Source: Anaerolineales bacterium
GTDB lineage: Bacteria; Chloroflexota; Anaerolineae; Anaerolineales; UBA6663
Direction: 5' to 3'
Assembly (NCBI GenBank): GCA_020845955.1
Contig: JADLEU010000128.1
Location: 1-34,678 of the forward strand
Length of the DNA: 34,678 bases
Below, piece by piece: positions 9,138 through 30,577 of the stretch. The position numbers were made by a program, and so were the translations under genes. The notes beneath the pieces were generated by a model. That model was given only the letters and a program-made list of their open reading frames with translations, made no database searches and was not told the DNA's origin. Within the stretch, counting starts at the first letter, position 1. The number at the start of each line of letters is the position of its first letter.

Positions 9138-10103
9138 CTAGTCCTCGGACAAGCCCTTTCCGCACCGGCCGCAAAATGTGAACTCTTCAGGCAGGTTCTG
9201 CGCACCGCAGTGGGGGCAGGCGGCCAACGGCGGGCCCCAGAAGTACTCCGGGTGCTGGTCAGCGGCATAGGCGCGGCGCAGCGCGTCGTAGTCGGGGCGC
9301 CGTTTCTCGATGAAAGAGCGTTCACCTTCGTGGGTCTCGGGCGCCAGGTTGTGGATCGCCAACCAGTCACGGGCGTGGCCGATGGTGATGCTCCAGATGA
9401 AATCGCGCCAGGTGTTCAACTGCTGTTTCGTGTAGCGCGTGGCTTCGGGCAGTTTGCGGTAGAGCTTCTCGGCCATGCTGTCCACGGCCGCGTCGAGCCG
9501 CGCGCGGGGCACAACTTGGTTGACCAGGCCCCACTCCAGCGCCTTGGCCGCCGAGATCTCCTCGTTGAGCAGCAAGACCTCGCGCGCCCGCCGGTCACCG
9601 ACGATGAGGGGCAGAAACTGAGTGGCGCCGGCCGCGGCCACGCTGCCGTGGCTGGCGCCAATCTGGCGGATGTAGATGTCGTCGGCGGCGATGGCCAGGT
9701 CGCAGGACAGATTGAACTCATTGCCGCCGCCGACCACGATGCCGTTGAGGCGGGCCAGGGTGGGCTTGCCCAGGTTGCGCAGGCGGTCGTGGCACTCGAT
9801 GAAATCGGCCATCCATTTGTGGTAGTCGCGCGGGCGGGCCAGGAAGGCCTGCTGTTCTTTCAGGTCGGCGCCGGTGCAGAAAGCGCGTTCGCCGGCCCCG
9901 GTTAGCACCAGCACGGCGATCGCGTCGTCGTAGCCGGCGTCGCGCAGCGCCAGGCTGATCTCGCGCAGCATGGGGCCGTTAACGCAGTTGTGAACTTCCG
10001 GGCGGTTGAAGGTCAGCGTGGCACGATAGCCGCTTTTTTCATAGCGGATGTGCTGGAAGCCGAAAGACTCGGCCGGCTGGCCAGCATATAGGCGATCGGA
10101 CAT
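9138..10103 (-). CDS. Crotonase with C-terminal zinc ribbon (BamA-like)
   Basis: This 321-residue protein is a crotonase (AFCTGADLKEQ at 75-84; E129 in VVGGGNEFNLSCD) with an extra C-terminal zinc ribbon, C296-x2-C299 and C311-x2-C314. The second catalytic glutamate of hydratases is absent: the equivalent region reads RQIGASHGSVAAAGATQFLP, with Gly149 or a neighbour at that position. In wording this region resembles 6-oxocyclohex-1-ene-1-carbonyl-CoA hydrolases (BamA/Oah) more than EchA, so it may hydrolyse a ring or C-C bond rather than hydrate an enoyl-CoA; this is inference from memory of the family. The ATG at 10103 follows AGAAAGG, 15 nt after the YbaK stop, so it belongs to the operon that starts with peptidase-MA. 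Confidence 0.85.
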   Translation of the reverse strand: MSDRLYAGQPAESFGFQHIRYEKSGYRATLTFNRPEVHNCVNGPMLREISLALRDAGYDDAIAVLVLTGAGERAFCTGADLKEQQAFLARPRDYHKWMADFIECHDRLRNLGKPTLARLNGIVVGGGNEFNLSCDLAIAADDIYIRQIGASHGSVAAAGATQFLPLIVGDRRAREVLLLNEEISAAKALEWGLVNQVVPRARLDAAVDSMAEKLYRKLPEATRYTKQQLNTWRDFIWSITIGHARDWLAIHNLAPETHEGERSFIEKRRPDYDALRRAYAADQHPEYFWGPPLAACPHCGAQNLPEEFTFCGRCGKGLSED

Positions 10104-14393: not shown

Positions 14394-14428
14394 GGCCAGT
14401 CACGTGATACGCGCGGAGAACGGTGCGT

Positions 14429-17092
14429 ATGGCCAGCGCAGCCACTCGATCGCCCCAGCCGGAGTCCGGCCGGGCGGACAGCCTAACGCTAGGCGGCCAG
14501 GCCGCGGTGACGCCGTACACGGGCGTGGCGCCGCTGGTCGTGGAGGCCGAGCGGCTGCGCGCCGCCGAAGCCCGGTTGGCGCGCCTGCCCACCAGTGTGC
14601 GGCCACAAACCGGCCACCTGGCGTCTGGCTCGCGCCTGCCCTTCCCGCGCAACCCGCTCTTCACGGGCCGCGATGCTGACCTGCGCGCCCTGGCTCAGCA
14701 GTTGGCGGCTGGGCCAGACGCGAACGGACAAGCGGCGGCCGCGGTTGGCCCGGGCGGTATTGGCAAGAGCCAACTGGCGCTCGAATTCGCGCTTCGGTAC
14801 GGCCAGTTTTTCGCCGGCGGGGTGTTCTGGCTGGATCTCAGCACGGCCAGCAACGTCCCGGCCGAAATTTGCCAGTGCCAGGGCGCCGTGGAGCCTGAGC
14901 ATCAGGCCGATTTCGGCCGTCTGCCGCAGGGCGTCCAGCTCAAGCTGATCCTGGCAGCGTGGCAGAGCCCGCTCCCGCGGCTGCTGATCTTCGACAACTG
15001 TCTCAGCGATCACCTGCTGGAAACCTGGCGCCCACCCGTCGGCGGCTGCCGAATCTTGATCACGAGCCGCCACCTGGTGTGGCCGATGGCCGTCGGAGTT
15101 CAATCGCAGGTGCTGGGCGTGCTGCCGCGCGCCGACAGCCTGGCCCTGCTGCGCAAGTTCCGCCCAGATCTGCCGCCCACCGACCCGGGCCTCAACGCGC
15201 TGGCCGAGGAGGCCGGCGATCACCCATTAGCTCTGTACCTGGCTGGACGCTACCTGGAGCATTATCGAGATGTGGCGCTGGGTCAGCCGACTGCCTATCT
15301 GACCACGCTGCGCCAGGCCCTACGCCAGGACGGCAACCGATCGGTAGGCGCGGGGCACGAACCAAAGATCGCGGCGGCGTTTCGAATCAACAGCGCCGTC
15401 CTTGACCCGATCCACCCAGTCGATGCGCTGGCCAGCCAAGCGCTGGCGCAGGCCGCCTGCTTGGCGCCTGACCTGCCCATTCCGCGCGCGGTGTTGCCGC
15501 TCGCCCGTCAGATCGACCCGCAGAGCGACGCGGCCCGGTTGTTCGAAGAGGCCTTGCGCCGCCTGGCGCGGCTGGGCCTGATCGAGGAGGGCGCGCAAGG
15601 GGGGCTGTGGCTTCCGCGCGTGCTGGCGCGCCTGGTGTTGGCCCAAATCGCCGGCACCACGCTGCCAGAACAGGTCGAGCTCGCGCTGCTGAGTGAGGCG
15701 GAACGCCTCAACGCCGCCGGACAAGCGGCGGCCTTGCAGAGCTGGCAGGCTCACCTGGCCTGGGTGGCCCGATCGGCGGAACGACGCCGCAGCCCCCTGG
15801 CCGCGCGGCTTTACAACGAGCTGGGCTATCACGCCCGGCTGCGCGGCGCGCTGGCCCAGGCCCGAATCTATCACGAGCGATCCGTGAGCCTCGGCGAGGC
15901 GACGCTGGGCCGCGACCACCCCGACCTGGTCACCTGGCACAACAACCTGGGACGGGTGCTGAAGCTCCTGGGTGATTTGCCCGGCGCCCGGCAGAAGCTC
16001 GAACGGGCGCTCGCGATCGGCCAGCAGGTGTTCGGGCCCGCATCGGAGGAGGTGGCCACGCTGCATAACAACCTGGGCCTGCTGCTGCACGATCAGGGCG
16101 ACCTGGCCAACGCGCTGCCCCACTTCGAGCAGGCCGTCGCCATCGGCGCGCGGACGCTGGGGCCCGATCACCCGGCCATGGCGATCCGCCACAGCAATCT
16201 CGGCCGGTTGTGGTTCAACCTGCGGGGCCTGGCAAACGCGCGCGCGCACTTTGAGCGCGCCCTGGCCATCGGCGAGCAAGCTCTGGGCGCAGACCATCCG
16301 GACCTGGCAGCCCGGCACGACAGCCTGGGGCAGGTACTGCATGCCCTCGGCGACCTGGACGGCGCCCGGACGCACTTCGAGCGGGCCCTGGCACTGGGCG
16401 CGCCAGCGCTGGGTCCGGTGCACCCGGAGGTCATGACGTGGCAGTCGCACCTGGGGCGGGTGCGGCGCGAATTCGTCAGCTGGTACGACAACGAGGGCCG
16501 AGGCGCGTACGATCAGGGCGACCTGGCGGGCGCCCGCGGGCACTTTGAGAAGGCGCTGGCGCTCGGCGCACAGGCGCTCGGCCCTGAGCATCCCGACGTG
16601 GCGACCCTGCACAACAACCTCGGCCGGGTGCTGCACAACCTGGGCGACACAACGACGGCGCGCTTTCACATCGAGCGCGCCCTGGCCATCGGCGAACAGA
16701 GCCTTGGCCCGGAGCATCCCGCCATTGCTTACCGGCACAGCAACCTGGGCCGGGTGCTGCACGACCTGGGTGATATGGGCGGCGCGCAGCTGCACTACGA
16801 GCGCGCCCTGCGCATCGGCGCCGCCGCCCTGGGGCCAAATCACCCCGACATGGCCACCTGGCACAACAACCTGGGCCGGGTATTGCACGACCTGGGTGAC
16901 CTGACGGTGGCCCGTATTCACTTTGAGCGCGCCCTGGCAATCGCCCGACAAACGCTCGGTCCCGATCACCCTGACGTCACCACGCTGCACAGGAACCTCG
17001 AGCCGCTCATGACGGCCGATAACGGCGCCGCCAAGCCGCCGCCGCGGATCTTGGACCGCCTGACGCGTTTTATTCGCCCCCCGCGCCGATAG
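14429..17092 (+). CDS. NB-ARC (STAND) ATPase with nine TPR units
   Basis: This 887-residue protein has a short N-terminal region (1-75) with no recognisable effector domain and then an NB-ARC ATPase. Walker A is GPGGIGKS at 107-114, Walker B is RLLIFD ending at D189, the sensor-like ILITSR is at 209-214, and GDHPLAL follows. A helical winged-helix-like segment leads into nine 42-residue TPR units (463-854) of the kinesin-light-chain type (NNLGRVLHDLGD...HFERALAIGEQ..LGPDHP). Such STAND proteins oligomerise when the repeats sense a ligand. Between units 5 and 6 there is an extra one-third repeat. A GTG at 14423 is an alternative start; GGAG at 14415-14418 fits the ATG at 14429 better. No signal peptide: cytosolic. 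Confidence 0.88.
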   Translation: MASAATRSPQPESGRADSLTLGGQAAVTPYTGVAPLVVEAERLRAAEARLARLPTSVRPQTGHLASGSRLPFPRNPLFTGRDADLRALAQQLAAGPDANGQAAAAVGPGGIGKSQLALEFALRYGQFFAGGVFWLDLSTASNVPAEICQCQGAVEPEHQADFGRLPQGVQLKLILAAWQSPLPRLLIFDNCLSDHLLETWRPPVGGCRILITSRHLVWPMAVGVQSQVLGVLPRADSLALLRKFRPDLPPTDPGLNALAEEAGDHPLALYLAGRYLEHYRDVALGQPTAYLTTLRQALRQDGNRSVGAGHEPKIAAAFRINSAVLDPIHPVDALASQALAQAACLAPDLPIPRAVLPLARQIDPQSDAARLFEEALRRLARLGLIEEGAQGGLWLPRVLARLVLAQIAGTTLPEQVELALLSEAERLNAAGQAAALQSWQAHLAWVARSAERRRSPLAARLYNELGYHARLRGALAQARIYHERSVSLGEATLGRDHPDLVTWHNNLGRVLKLLGDLPGARQKLERALAIGQQVFGPASEEVATLHNNLGLLLHDQGDLANALPHFEQAVAIGARTLGPDHPAMAIRHSNLGRLWFNLRGLANARAHFERALAIGEQALGADHPDLAARHDSLGQVLHALGDLDGARTHFERALALGAPALGPVHPEVMTWQSHLGRVRREFVSWYDNEGRGAYDQGDLAGARGHFEKALALGAQALGPEHPDVATLHNNLGRVLHNLGDTTTARFHIERALAIGEQSLGPEHPAIAYRHSNLGRVLHDLGDMGGAQLHYERALRIGAAALGPNHPDMATWHNNLGRVLHDLGDLTVARIHFERALAIARQTLGPDHPDVTTLHRNLEPLMTADNGAAKPPPRILDRLTRFIRPPRR
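15815..16990 (+). repeat. Tandem 126-bp units encoding TPRs, with one truncated unit
   Basis: Nine 126-bp units start at 15815, 15941, 16067, 16193, 16319, 16487, 16613, 16739 and 16865. A 42-bp remnant (16445-16486, encoding SHLGRVRREFVSWY) lies between units 5 and 6 and equals exactly one third of a unit. Units 7-9 are the most alike at DNA level. Confidence 0.85.
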
Positions 17093-17155: not shown

Positions 17156-17200
17156 TGCGCCCGCGCCGTGGTCGTTTGGCCGCGGCCCGCCTTTATCGGC

Positions 17201-18400
17201 ATGCCCCCTCAATCTTCTCCCGAGACGGCTCCCCTGTTTGGCTGCCCACAGTGCCAGACGCCCGTGCGGGCCGGCGACACGACCTGCCGGGCCTGCGGCA
17301 TCAATCTGGCCTTGGCAGCCGTGCTGTTCGAGCGCTACGCTGCCAGCAGCGCGGGGAGCGCGGCAGCCCGGCCGGCGCCCACCGCCGGGCTGCCGCGTTT
17401 CGGGGAGTTTCTCGTCAGCCAGGGTCTAATCACCGGCGCGCAGCTGCGCGCCGGGCTGGCGCGCCAGCGGGAATTGGCGGCCTTGGGTTTGAACAAGACC
17501 ATCGGCCAAACCCTGCTGACCATGGGTGTAGTCACCCGGGAAGCCCTCGAACAGGCCAGCATCCAGCAAGTCAAGCAGCTGCAGGCCGCGCTGGAACAAA
17601 ACAACCGGGAGCTGGAGCAGCGCGTGGCTGAGCGCACTGAGGCGCTCGAAGCCGCGCTGCGCCGATTAACCGAGCTGAATGAGCTGAAGGCCAACTTCAT
17701 TGCCAACATTTCGCACGAGCTGCGGACGCCGCTGGTGCCTCTCAAAGGCTATGCAGATTTGCTGCTGGCTGGCAGCCTGGGGGCGCTCAGCGCGGCGCAA
17801 CAGCAGGCCGTGGAAACGATCAGCCGCTCCACCGAGCGGCTGGCGGCGCTGATCAACTCCTTAATCCAGTTCGCGTCGAGCGTAAAGGGCAAGCTCACCA
17901 TCAACGCTACGCTGGTTGACCTGGGCGACCTGGCCGGGCCCCTGTGGGACTACTTTGAGCCTCGCGCCAGCGACAAGCAGCTGGCGCTGCGCCAGGCGCT
18001 GCCCGACGCCTTGCCGCCAGCCTACGCCGACGCGGAGAAAATCTACTGGGTGCTGTACCAACTGCTCGACAACGCAATCAAGTTCACGCCGGCCGGCGGC
18101 GAAGTAGAGTTGAAGGCCGAGGTGCGCGCGGCCAGCCTGCGCGTCAGTGTGCGCGATACCGGCCCCGGCGTGCCACCCGAGCAGGTGGGTCTGATCTTCC
18201 GGCCTTTTGCGCAGGCGACGGAAATGCCCGAAACCTATGACGGCGCCGGTCTGGGTCTTGCCCTAGTCAAGCGCATCATCGAAGCGCACAACTCGCGGGT
18301 GGACGTGGACAGCCAGCCAAACGTGGGCAGCACCTTCGCCTTTGACCTGCCGCTGGCCCGGCCAGGGACCCTGCCGCCGCCGGCGGCGGCCGCCCCATGA
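17201..18400 (+). CDS. Soluble histidine kinase with zinc ribbon and MshEN-like domain
   Basis: This 399-residue kinase has no transmembrane segment. In order it has: a zinc ribbon (C15, C18, C29, C32); a domain at 67-123 with two copies of an MshEN/T2SSE-N-type pattern (FGEFLVSQGLITGAQLRAGLARQ and IGQTLLTMGVVTREALEQASIQQ), a fold known to bind cyclic-di-GMP in MshE; a coiled coil (124-160); HisKA with H172 in NISHELRTPL; and HATPase_c with LLDNAIKFTPAGG, DTGPGVPPEQ and GAGLGLALVKRI. The phosphorylation partner is not adjacent. ATG 17201 was preferred to GTG 17168 for domain phase; neither has a clear Shine-Dalgarno. Its stop overlaps the glycosidase start (ATGA), which implies coupled translation. 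Confidence 0.87.
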   Translation: MPPQSSPETAPLFGCPQCQTPVRAGDTTCRACGINLALAAVLFERYAASSAGSAAARPAPTAGLPRFGEFLVSQGLITGAQLRAGLARQRELAALGLNKTIGQTLLTMGVVTREALEQASIQQVKQLQAALEQNNRELEQRVAERTEALEAALRRLTELNELKANFIANISHELRTPLVPLKGYADLLLAGSLGALSAAQQQAVETISRSTERLAALINSLIQFASSVKGKLTINATLVDLGDLAGPLWDYFEPRASDKQLALRQALPDALPPAYADAEKIYWVLYQLLDNAIKFTPAGGEVELKAEVRAASLRVSVRDTGPGVPPEQVGLIFRPFAQATEMPETYDGAGLGLALVKRIIEAHNSRVDVDSQPNVGSTFAFDLPLARPGTLPPPAAAAP

Positions 18401-28205: not shown

Positions 28206-28239
28206 AAAGGCCGGCAGCGGCTTAGCTGCCGGCCTTTTT
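28206..28239 (+). terminator. Strong intrinsic terminator, overlapping the end of the kinase gene
   Basis: AAAGGCCGGCAGC (28206-28218) pairs perfectly over 13 bp with GCTGCCGGCCTTT (28225-28237), loop GGCTTA, followed by T5 (28235-28239). It ends transcription of the lytic transglycosylase. On the other strand the loop contains the TAA of the convergent histidine kinase and one arm encodes its last residues. Confidence 0.9.
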
Positions 28240-29766
28240 CATGGCGAGCGGGGAGGGCGCCGGGCGCGTGTCCGACAGCTTAGGCGCTTCGCTGGCGGCG
28301 CGCTCGGGCGCCAGCGGCAGCCACACACAGAAGGTAGATCCCTTACCGTTGGTGCCGTCGGAAGAGGCCTCAATCCGGCCGCCGTGCATGTGGGCGATGC
28401 GCTGAGCAATGGCCAGGCCCAGCCCGGCGCCGCCCTGGGCGCGCGCGCGCGCTTTGTCCACCCGGTAGAACCGGTCGAAGATGTGCGGCAGCTCGTCGGC
28501 CGGGATGCCGGCGCCGGTATCGGTGATCACCACGCGCGCCCAGCCGCTAGCCGCGCGCGCCAGCCCAAGCGTTACCCGCCCCCCGTCGGGCGTGAACTTG
28601 AGGCCGTTGCTGACCAGGTTGAGCAAGAGCTGCTTGAGCCGGTCGCGGTCGCCAAGGACCACGGCCTGATCGATCTCGCCAATCGTTAGGTGAACGCCGC
28701 CGGCCAGCACTTGCGCTTCGCGATAAACCTCCAGCAAGAGCGTGTCGAGCTCGACTGGTTGGCGCGCCATGGGCAGGGTGCCGGCATCGGATTGAGCCAG
28801 CAGCAGCAGGTCGCGCACCAGCCGGCTCATGCGTTCGGACTCGGACTGGATGGCGTCCAGCGAAGTCGTGTCGACCCCGCCCATCCGCCGCAGCAGGTCG
28901 ACGTTGCCCCGGATGGTCGTCAGCGGGGTGCGCAGCTCGTGGGACACGTCGGCCAGAAAGCGGCGCTGAGCATAGAACAGCCGCTCCAGGCGCTCCAGGG
29001 TGGCGTTGAAGACCTGCGCCAACCGGCCGACCTCATCGTTGGGCACGCCGGTCAGCGGGATGCGGCGCGACAGGTCGTCAGCGCGCGTGATCTGCAAGGC
29101 GGTCTGCGTGATCGTGTCGAGCGGGCGCAGGGCGCGGTTGGCCGACAGCCAGCCCACCCCGGCCGCCAGCAGCACCGCGGCGACGGATCCCAGCACCAAC
29201 ACCACCAGCAGCACGCTGGTGGCCAGATCGACCTGGTCGCGCGATTGAGCCAGCTGAATAAAACCCAACAGCTGGCCCTCGGCGGTTTTGATCGGCACCG
29301 TCACCACGCGCAGGTGCGAGCCGGCGATAAGCACGTTGCGGCTGGAGCGGCCGGCACGTTCCAGGCCGCGTTCGTCCAGGGGCTGCTTGTAGGCCAGGTT
29401 CTCAGAATTGGCGAGCCAGGTGCCGTCGGCGCGCCAGACCTGAACGTAGACGCGCGAGGCGCCGAAGCGGTCGACTTCTTCGCGCGGGATGGTGAGGATC
29501 TGAACGTTTAGCAGGCGCTGCAGACTGCTGGCGGCGATGATGTCCTCGGCCGTGGTGGTCAGGCTGTCGTCGATCGAGTTGACAAGTGTGTAGGCCGTGA
29601 GGCCGTAGACCACCACCCCAAACAGAGCGATGATCAACGCCAGCACGGCCGAATACAAAATCGTCAGTCGCAGGCGGAGGGTCAACGGAAAGTGGTGGAT
29701 ACCGAGCTCCTGGTCCGCCTTAGCCTGGTGAACGGCGCCAGGCCCAAGCCGAGCCATGCCCAGCAT
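28222..29766 (-). CDS. Membrane sensor histidine kinase (HAMP-HisKA-HATPase)
   Basis: The 514-residue protein is a classical sensor kinase: TM1 at about 33-57, an extracytoplasmic sensor region (58-180, containing RVYVQVWRADGTWLANSENL, PAS/Cache-like), TM2 at about 183-207, HAMP (209-262), HisKA with H276 in FLADVSHELRTPL, and HATPase_c with LLLNLVSNGLKFTPDGG, DTGAGIP and GAGLGLAIAQRI. It should phosphorylate the OmpR-type regulator encoded 123 bp upstream. The start at 29766 has CGAGG shortly before it; ATG 29757 is possible. Its final codons and stop lie within the terminator hairpin of the convergent gene. The signal it senses is unknown. Confidence 0.93.
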   Translation of the reverse strand: MLGMARLGPGAVHQAKADQELGIHHFPLTLRLRLTILYSAVLALIIALFGVVVYGLTAYTLVNSIDDSLTTTAEDIIAASSLQRLLNVQILTIPREEVDRFGASRVYVQVWRADGTWLANSENLAYKQPLDERGLERAGRSSRNVLIAGSHLRVVTVPIKTAEGQLLGFIQLAQSRDQVDLATSVLLVVLVLGSVAAVLLAAGVGWLSANRALRPLDTITQTALQITRADDLSRRIPLTGVPNDEVGRLAQVFNATLERLERLFYAQRRFLADVSHELRTPLTTIRGNVDLLRRMGGVDTTSLDAIQSESERMSRLVRDLLLLAQSDAGTLPMARQPVELDTLLLEVYREAQVLAGGVHLTIGEIDQAVVLGDRDRLKQLLLNLVSNGLKFTPDGGRVTLGLARAASGWARVVITDTGAGIPADELPHIFDRFYRVDKARARAQGGAGLGLAIAQRIAHMHGGRIEASSDGTNGKGSTFCVWLPLAPERAASEAPKLSDTRPAPSPLAMKKAGS

Positions 29767-29889
29767 CCGGCCTCGATTTGAGATCGATATTAAGTCCGTG
29801 TGAGCGTCTTATGAGAAAGCCCAGCCGGCAGCGCGCCGCGGCCCCCCCATGGCCAACAGCCGGCGCCGTCTGCCGGCGGGCGGCGGCTT

Positions 29890-30564
29890 TCACTCCTCGC
29901 GCAGCACGTAGCCGACGCCGCGCACAGTGTGGACCAGGCGCGGCTCCTGCGCAGCCTCGGTTTTCTGGCGCAGATAGCGGACGTAGACCTCGATGATGTT
30001 GCTTTCGCCGCCGAAATCGTAGCCCCACACCCGGTCAAAAATCACCTCGCGCGTCAGCACCTGGCGCGGGTGGCGCATAAACAGCTCCAACAACTCATAT
30101 TCCTTGGCGGTCAGCTCGATGGGGCGCTCGCGCCGGAATGCCTGGCGCGTGCCGGTGTCGAGGGACAGATCGGAAAACTTCAGCACCTCCGGCGAGGCAG
30201 GCGCGGCCCGGCGCAGGAGGGCGCGCATCCGGGCGAGCAGCTCATCAAAGGCAAAGGGCTTGACCAGGTAGTCGTCGGCGCCGGCGTCCAGACCCATCAC
30301 TCGGTCGCTGACGGTGTCCTTGGCCGTCAGCATCAGGATGGGCACCGAGCTCGCGGCCCGCAAGCGCCGGCAGACTTCCAGGCCATCCATCCCCGGCATC
30401 ATCCAGTCCAGGATGACAATATCAGGTGGGTTTTCGCGGGCCAGCGCCAGCCCGGCGGTCCCGTCGGGGGCGACGTCGACGCGGTAGTTCTCGTAGGCGA
30501 GCCCGCGCTGCAGGAACTGGCGAATGCGATCTTCGTCTTCGATGACCAGCACCCGGTTGCTCAT
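29890..30564 (-). CDS. OmpR/PhoB-family response regulator
   Basis: The 224-residue regulator has a receiver domain with acidic E9/D10/E11, the phosphoacceptor D53 ([11 protein letters not shown]), T80 and K102 (YLVKPFAF), followed by an OmpR-type winged helix ([41 protein letters not shown], then [18 protein letters not shown] and [10 protein letters not shown]). It is the partner of the kinase encoded downstream. Start ATG 30564 (MSNRVLV) fits the family; ATG 30576 would add four residues. A TATGAT box seven bases before 30564 suggests a leaderless mRNA. The gene lies directly after the terminator of the ribosomal cluster. Confidence 0.94.
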
Positions 30565-30571
30565 GGCCTGA

Positions 30572-30577
30572 ATCATA
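30572..30577 (-). promoter_or_regulatory. -10 box TATGAT before the response regulator
   Basis: TATGAT on the minus strand ends seven bases before the ATG at 30564. The region where a -35 would lie is the rplL terminator hairpin. Confidence 0.4.

Follow-up and report, generated by a model that had tools for sequence, protein, structure and literature searches.

The window, the whole stretch of 34,678 nucleotides of an Anaerolineales contig that was analysed, carries on its forward strand a gene for a histidine kinase. Its features are listed below, with residues numbered from the ATG at 17201.

17201–18400, + strand: MshEN_N-type histidine kinase gene, an ORF with an ATG start, 399 aa
17168–18400, + strand: the same ORF from an alternative, in-frame GTG start at 17168, giving 410 aa
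17243–17296, + strand: zinc ribbon CxxC-x10-CxxC, residues 15–32 (PF13248, E 2.6e-4, under the curated cut-off; alignment)
17396–17467, + strand: MshEN motif 1, RFGEFLVSQGLITGAQLRAGLARQ, residues 66–89 (family profile, canonical HMM, residue mapping)
17468–17497, + strand: spacer of 10 residues between the motifs (sequence, kinase alignment)
17498–17569, + strand: MshEN motif 2, TIGQTLLTMGVVTREALEQASIQQ, residues 100–123, without the equivalents of Arg38 and Leu58
17570–17686, + strand: signalling helix or coiled-coil linker of constant length (AF2 helix 113–189; 38-kinase alignment)
17687–17878, + strand: HisKA dimerisation and phosphoacceptor domain (Pfam), with the His172 codon at 17714–17716
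18029–18358, + strand: HATPase_c catalytic domain (Pfam)

Pfam identifies HisKA at residues 163–226 (E 9.5e-17) and HATPase_c at residues 277–386 (E 3.4e-26). The phosphoacceptor histidine and the N, G1, F and G2 boxes are all present, with intact SHELRTP (containing His172), DNAIKFTP, DTGPGVP and GAGLGLAL sequences, and a Foldseek search with the kinase returned matches to HK853, GacS and others. The window protein is a soluble, cytoplasmic histidine kinase with an MshEN_N-type domain as its probable input. For its zinc ribbon the Pfam match spans residues 15–36; the first CxxC recurs in 32 of 38 relatives, and the ribbon probably has a structural role or one in interactions. Pfam and motif mapping confirmed the order of parts proposed in an earlier, sequence-only reading of this DNA (zinc ribbon, MshEN motifs, HisKA/HATPase), the coordinates of which were right. 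A C-terminal zinc ribbon was also seen in an enoyl-CoA hydratase-family protein encoded at 9141–10103 on the minus strand of the window.

The 5′ neighbour of the kinase gene encodes a TPR protein; directly upstream, at 14423–17092, lies the gene for this 889-aa protein, whose N-terminus is NTPase-like and whose many TPR repeats closely resemble one another. On the 3′ side the kinase stop overlaps by four bases (ATGA) with a glycoside-hydrolase-like gene, which is followed by one for a PMT_2-type membrane protein. No regulator gene is adjacent to the window kinase, and the genes for a HAMP kinase and an OmpR regulator at 28225–30576 form a pair of their own.

Identity of the N-terminal region

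MshEN_N consists of two 24-residue motifs that bind cyclic-di-GMP (c-di-GMP), and in the pilus ATPases it is followed by a second half, MshEN_C (Wang et al. 2016, PMC5013675). The consensus RLGxx(L/V/I)(L/V/I)xxG(L/V/I)(L/V/I)xxxxLxxxLxxQ is found twice in the window kinase, motif 1 matching it in full with an L to F change and motif 2 in full except for changes of R to T, L to I and L to S. The sequence-only reading had recognised two copies of the simpler pattern LxxxGxxxxxxLxxxLxxQ within residues 67–123; motif 1 fits it exactly, but Ser120 takes the place of the second Leu of LxxxLxxQ in motif 2.

Searched at a threshold of E 10, PF05157, the Pfam model for MshEN, finds nothing in the window protein or elsewhere in its genome, and the kinase does not exceed the Pfam cut-off. 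Genuine ATPases of this phylum do match PF05157, with matches that start right after motif 2; in one such ATPase (G228:C1) the match to our family profile lies at 1887783–1887938 and that to PF05157 follows at 1887942–1888199. Because the model describes MshEN_C, the half that follows the motifs, its silence does not refute them, and the motif region was therefore tested directly with profiles of our own. PF05157 was dropped as a motif test, being both silent and a model of the wrong half of the domain. Since MshEN_N escapes the Pfam model named after it, annotation may have passed over many receptors of this kind.

A family profile was built from 50 homologous N-terminal segments and searched against all PDB sequences. 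It returned PilF of T. thermophilus (1.7e-21), MshE (5HTL, E 9.3e-11), several PilB proteins at about 2e-10 and c-di-GMP-binding fragments of PilF, and the only rows that were not MshEN were two weak ones (0.012 and 0.27). With the window sequence alone, the same database gave PilF at 1.5e-4 and 5HTL at 0.025. A second, canonical HMM was built solely from 19 MshEN_N domains of T2SS/T4P ATPases. Against this model the window protein, which is among the lowest scorers of its family, reached 24.5 bits, compared with a maximum of 11.5 over about 2000 shuffled versions of the N-terminal region, and HHalign with canonical MshEN_N gave a probability of 99.1. The comparison with an MshEN profile that had been proposed as a check on the assignment is therefore positive, with only the Pfam model silent.

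The AlphaFold model of the N-terminal region, made without templates, is a four-helix bundle with a pLDDT of 93.8, and by this predicted structure the region has the four-helix MshEN_N fold. In a Foldseek search of the PDB the top nine matches to the model were all c-di-GMP-bound MshEN structures, 5HTL first, with a deviation of 1.0 A over 62 columns, a likeness that is not wholly independent of the known MshEN structures because AlphaFold was trained when 5HTL was public. With VIA-align the Z score was 10.9 for 5HTL, falling to 5.0 at the first unrelated chain. Because the search of the PDB with the family profile, the profile-profile and canonical-HMM tests and the predicted fold agree, the earlier assignment to the T2SSE-N/MshEN fold is borne out, and we regard the identity of the domain as MshEN_N as well established, with very little room for doubt. 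It might be argued that Leu/Gly/Gln-rich amphipathic helices placed before a coiled coil would resemble MshEN by chance, without homology, and the absence of a PF05157 match and the modest score of the single sequence would fit this notion. However, PF05157 cannot test the motifs, its matches starting beyond them in genuine ATPases, and family profile, HMM, shuffles and fold all yield MshEN, so that a chance likeness seems extremely improbable.

Ligand contacts and cyclic-di-GMP

Each of the 12 guanine-contact positions of MshE can be located in the window kinase. In motif 1, R9, L10, G11, L25, L29 and Q32 correspond to R66, F67, G68, L82, L86 and Q89, and in motif 2, R38, L39, G40, L54, L58 and Q61 correspond to T100, I101, G102, L116, S120 and Q123. 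Eight are therefore identical and two conservative (Phe for Leu10, Ile for Leu39), while two are lost, both in motif 2 (Arg38 to Thr and Leu58 to Ser). The inspection of ligand-contact residues suggested by the sequence-only reading thus has a divided outcome: Arg9, Gly11, Leu25, Leu29, Gln32, Gly40, Leu54 and Gln61 are in place, and Arg38 and Leu58 are not. Loss of the two weakens the second half-site of the window copy and may reduce its affinity for c-di-GMP; in MshE, L58A alone lowers affinity about tenfold (PMC5013675). The loss of Arg38 is not specific to this protein, because 40 of the 50 family sequences lack the residue, as do several canonical ATPases from the phylum. Among the same 50 sequences, G11 and G40 are invariant, R9 is Arg in 48 and Lys in 2, Q32 is kept in 46 and Q61 in 42, whereas the turn glycines are less conserved (G18 in 37, G47 in 33). 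This conservation of the contacts above that of the turn glycines suggests that ligand binding, and not the fold alone, has been under selection. The C282 paralogue, encoded in the same genome, and most relatives keep 11 or all 12 contacts. Between the motifs lie 5 residues in MshE (PMC5013675) and 10 in the window kinase; in the solved PilB and PilF domains the spacer is longer than in MshE, of intermediate length, and because of these other lengths a 5-residue spacer was not taken as defining MshEN_N.

Diguanylate cyclases, the presence of which in the genome had been named as a further check, were found: the genome encodes eight strong GGDEF domains, seven of them with GGDEF or GGEEF. A search of it for PilZ, EAL and PF05157 detected none. 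Relatives of the N-terminal module occur in 50 of 61 related genomes, or in 49 if one weak match in a 1242-aa frame is left out. GGDEF is present in all 49 genomes with the module and absent from 9 of the 12 without it (P = 1.3e-8, 61 genomes). The 9 genomes that lack both have few histidine kinases, and when genomes are matched for kinase number the association is weak, being non-significant at 12–20 HisKA matches (P = 0.33) and having P = 0.02 at 10–30. Co-occurrence is therefore confounded by a general loss of histidine kinases; we rejected it as independent proof and count it as weak support.

We consider it quite likely that the family binds c-di-GMP, and somewhat less likely, while still probable, that the window copy does so. 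Its domain might instead have degenerated into a relic that no longer binds, or serve for protein interaction, docking for example on a pilus ATPase or on its own paralogue, in which case the kinase would answer to something else. The missing Arg38 and Leu58 equivalents are what such a relic would display, the window copy is among the most divergent members of the family, its nearest clade-mate (G008:C1) lacks the HATPase domain and the histidine, and MshEN domains that do not bind exist, XpsE being a homologue in which binding has been lost (PMC5013675). Set against this, the window copy retains both invariant glycines, both glutamines, Arg9 and three of the four LxxxL leucines, and nearly all contacts persist in the paralogue and most relatives, so we judge loss of binding unlikely. 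It is less probable again, to the point of being quite doubtful, that the domain senses cGAMP or another related cyclic dinucleotide, or some other ligand, in place of c-di-GMP. MshEN does bind cGAMP weakly, motif 2 is altered in the clade of the window copy and the longer spacer could reshape the pocket, but the V. cholerae domain prefers c-di-GMP about 600-fold (0.5 uM compared with 330 uM; PMC5013675), and the genome encodes typical GGDEF domains.

Proposed coupling to the kinase, and known systems

In the full-length model (pLDDT 86) a single unbroken helix, residues 113–189, is predicted to run from MshEN helix 4, which bears the equivalents of L54, L58 and Q61, through the linker and into the first DHp helix with His172. 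The stretch between Gln123 and His172 is exactly 48 residues long in every one of the 38 kinases aligned, a step of 49 residues from Gln to His, and the linker has no indels; the spacer between the motifs, unlike this linker, varies in length. Since 49 residues equal seven heptads, the phosphoacceptor His falls in the same register as the ligand-contact Gln. Common descent may also explain the invariant length.

These features suggest a model in which c-di-GMP would bind across both motifs and close the bundle, repacking or rotating helix 4. The change in helix 4 would pass down the coiled coil and shift the signalling helix, and the balance of kinase and phosphatase activities toward a response regulator would switch, turning the kinase either on or off. 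On this model, which suggests a direct route from c-di-GMP to protein phosphorylation, the protein is reasonably likely to be a c-di-GMP-regulated histidine kinase, with MshEN_N as its receptor and helix 4 continuous with the signalling helix.

With the MshEN domains of MshE, PilB and PilF (5HTL, 8PFA) the window kinase shares the two 24-residue motifs, the four-helix bundle (here predicted) and most contacts. It differs in lacking the MshEN_C half and the ATPase, in place of which a zinc ribbon and a HisKA-type kinase are fused, and from MshE in its spacer of 10 and not 5 residues and in the absence of Arg38 and Leu58. The fusions of MshEN given by Wang et al. 2016 are to REC, HD-GYP, CheA, CheX, cyclase and Ser/Thr kinase domains (PMC5013675); they likewise use MshEN as an input to other signalling outputs, and CheA is also a histidine kinase, but the main text names no orthodox HisKA/HATPase kinase. 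Nor was any description of an MshEN_N-HisKA kinase found in the literature that was examined. Few histidine kinases are known to read c-di-GMP directly, and those that do so bind it at other sites. The activities of CckA and ShkA of Caulobacter are set directly by c-di-GMP (PMC7010744, PMC12564702), CckA binding it through its catalytic domain and ShkA through a pseudo-receiver, whereas in the window kinase the candidate site is an MshEN domain at the N-terminus, attached to the signalling helix. Here a receptor domain already known appears in a kinase architecture that is new and conserved, joined through a helix predicted to be continuous. If real, such a compact, soluble kinase with its input on a continuous helix would provide a simple route from a second messenger to a phosphorelay, and would supply a c-di-GMP receptor in a lineage rich in diguanylate cyclases, in a genome where searches for PilZ, EAL and PF05157 were negative.

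The kinase family and related proteins

Most relatives have the same order of parts as the window kinase, and the architecture is conserved through the order. They were found with the N-terminal region; a search with the whole protein had returned only ordinary kinases matching in the catalytic core and was abandoned, and the N-terminal region had no match among plasmid records. We surveyed 20 larger neighbourhoods, which were those of relatives and of the C282 paralogue; beside this paralogue, as beside many orthologues, lies a CpaF-like ATPase. A cluster with a CpaF-like T2SSE ATPase near the kinase was seen in 12 of the 20, a GAF histidine kinase stood directly beside it in 8, and 9 had genes for response regulators of OmpR type or REC-AAA_31 nearby; genes for DUF6812, HTH, TPR and GNAT proteins also recur. 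At two loci (L139:7672-10637 and L154:9697-15466) the MshEN kinase, GAF kinase, OmpR-type regulator, REC-AAA_31, DUF6812 and CpaF-like ATPase recur together. DUF6812 may be part of the MshEN-kinase pathway, and the C282 paralogue, from its position beside the ATPase, may control a pilus or secretion locus.

The window copy lies outside the CpaF-like ATPase locus, and its TPR, glycoside-hydrolase-like and PMT_2-like neighbours do not recur consistently around relatives' kinases, which gives no indication of a conserved operon there. The description of this kinase as an orphan is thus apt for the window copy itself but does not extend to orthologues, which often adjoin a GAF kinase and an OmpR-type regulator. 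The window copy appears to be a paralogue with, by its contacts, a weakened second half-site. In the tree it falls on a separate branch with the G008 protein, a placement that is unsure because the latter has a long branch. This 213-aa relative (L060:1721-2359) keeps the zinc ribbon and MshEN_N and has lost the phosphoacceptor histidine and the catalytic domain; it may act as a receptor on its own or stem from a gene in decay.

A broader proposal, which we put forward tentatively and rate as somewhat short of probable, is that these kinases form a new class throughout the order, in which receptor helix 4 would be the start of the signalling helix, phase-locked 49 residues from the phosphoacceptor His. 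The orthologues would couple c-di-GMP to the CpaF-like ATPase locus, and the window gene would be a diverged second copy with different sensitivity.

Within the phylum, long-spacer MshEN_N is a widely reused input module. TPR proteins with one or two such domains are encoded at L138:8352-8954 (a small protein at C198 of the genome that carries the window), L175, L180 and L188. The domain was also seen in L174, L178 (with an N-terminus that is FHA-like by eye), L186 (receiver-like by eye) and L173, coiled-coil proteins included, and in L059 it is joined to a CheA, with Hpt, P2, dimerisation, HATPase and CheW domains by Pfam.
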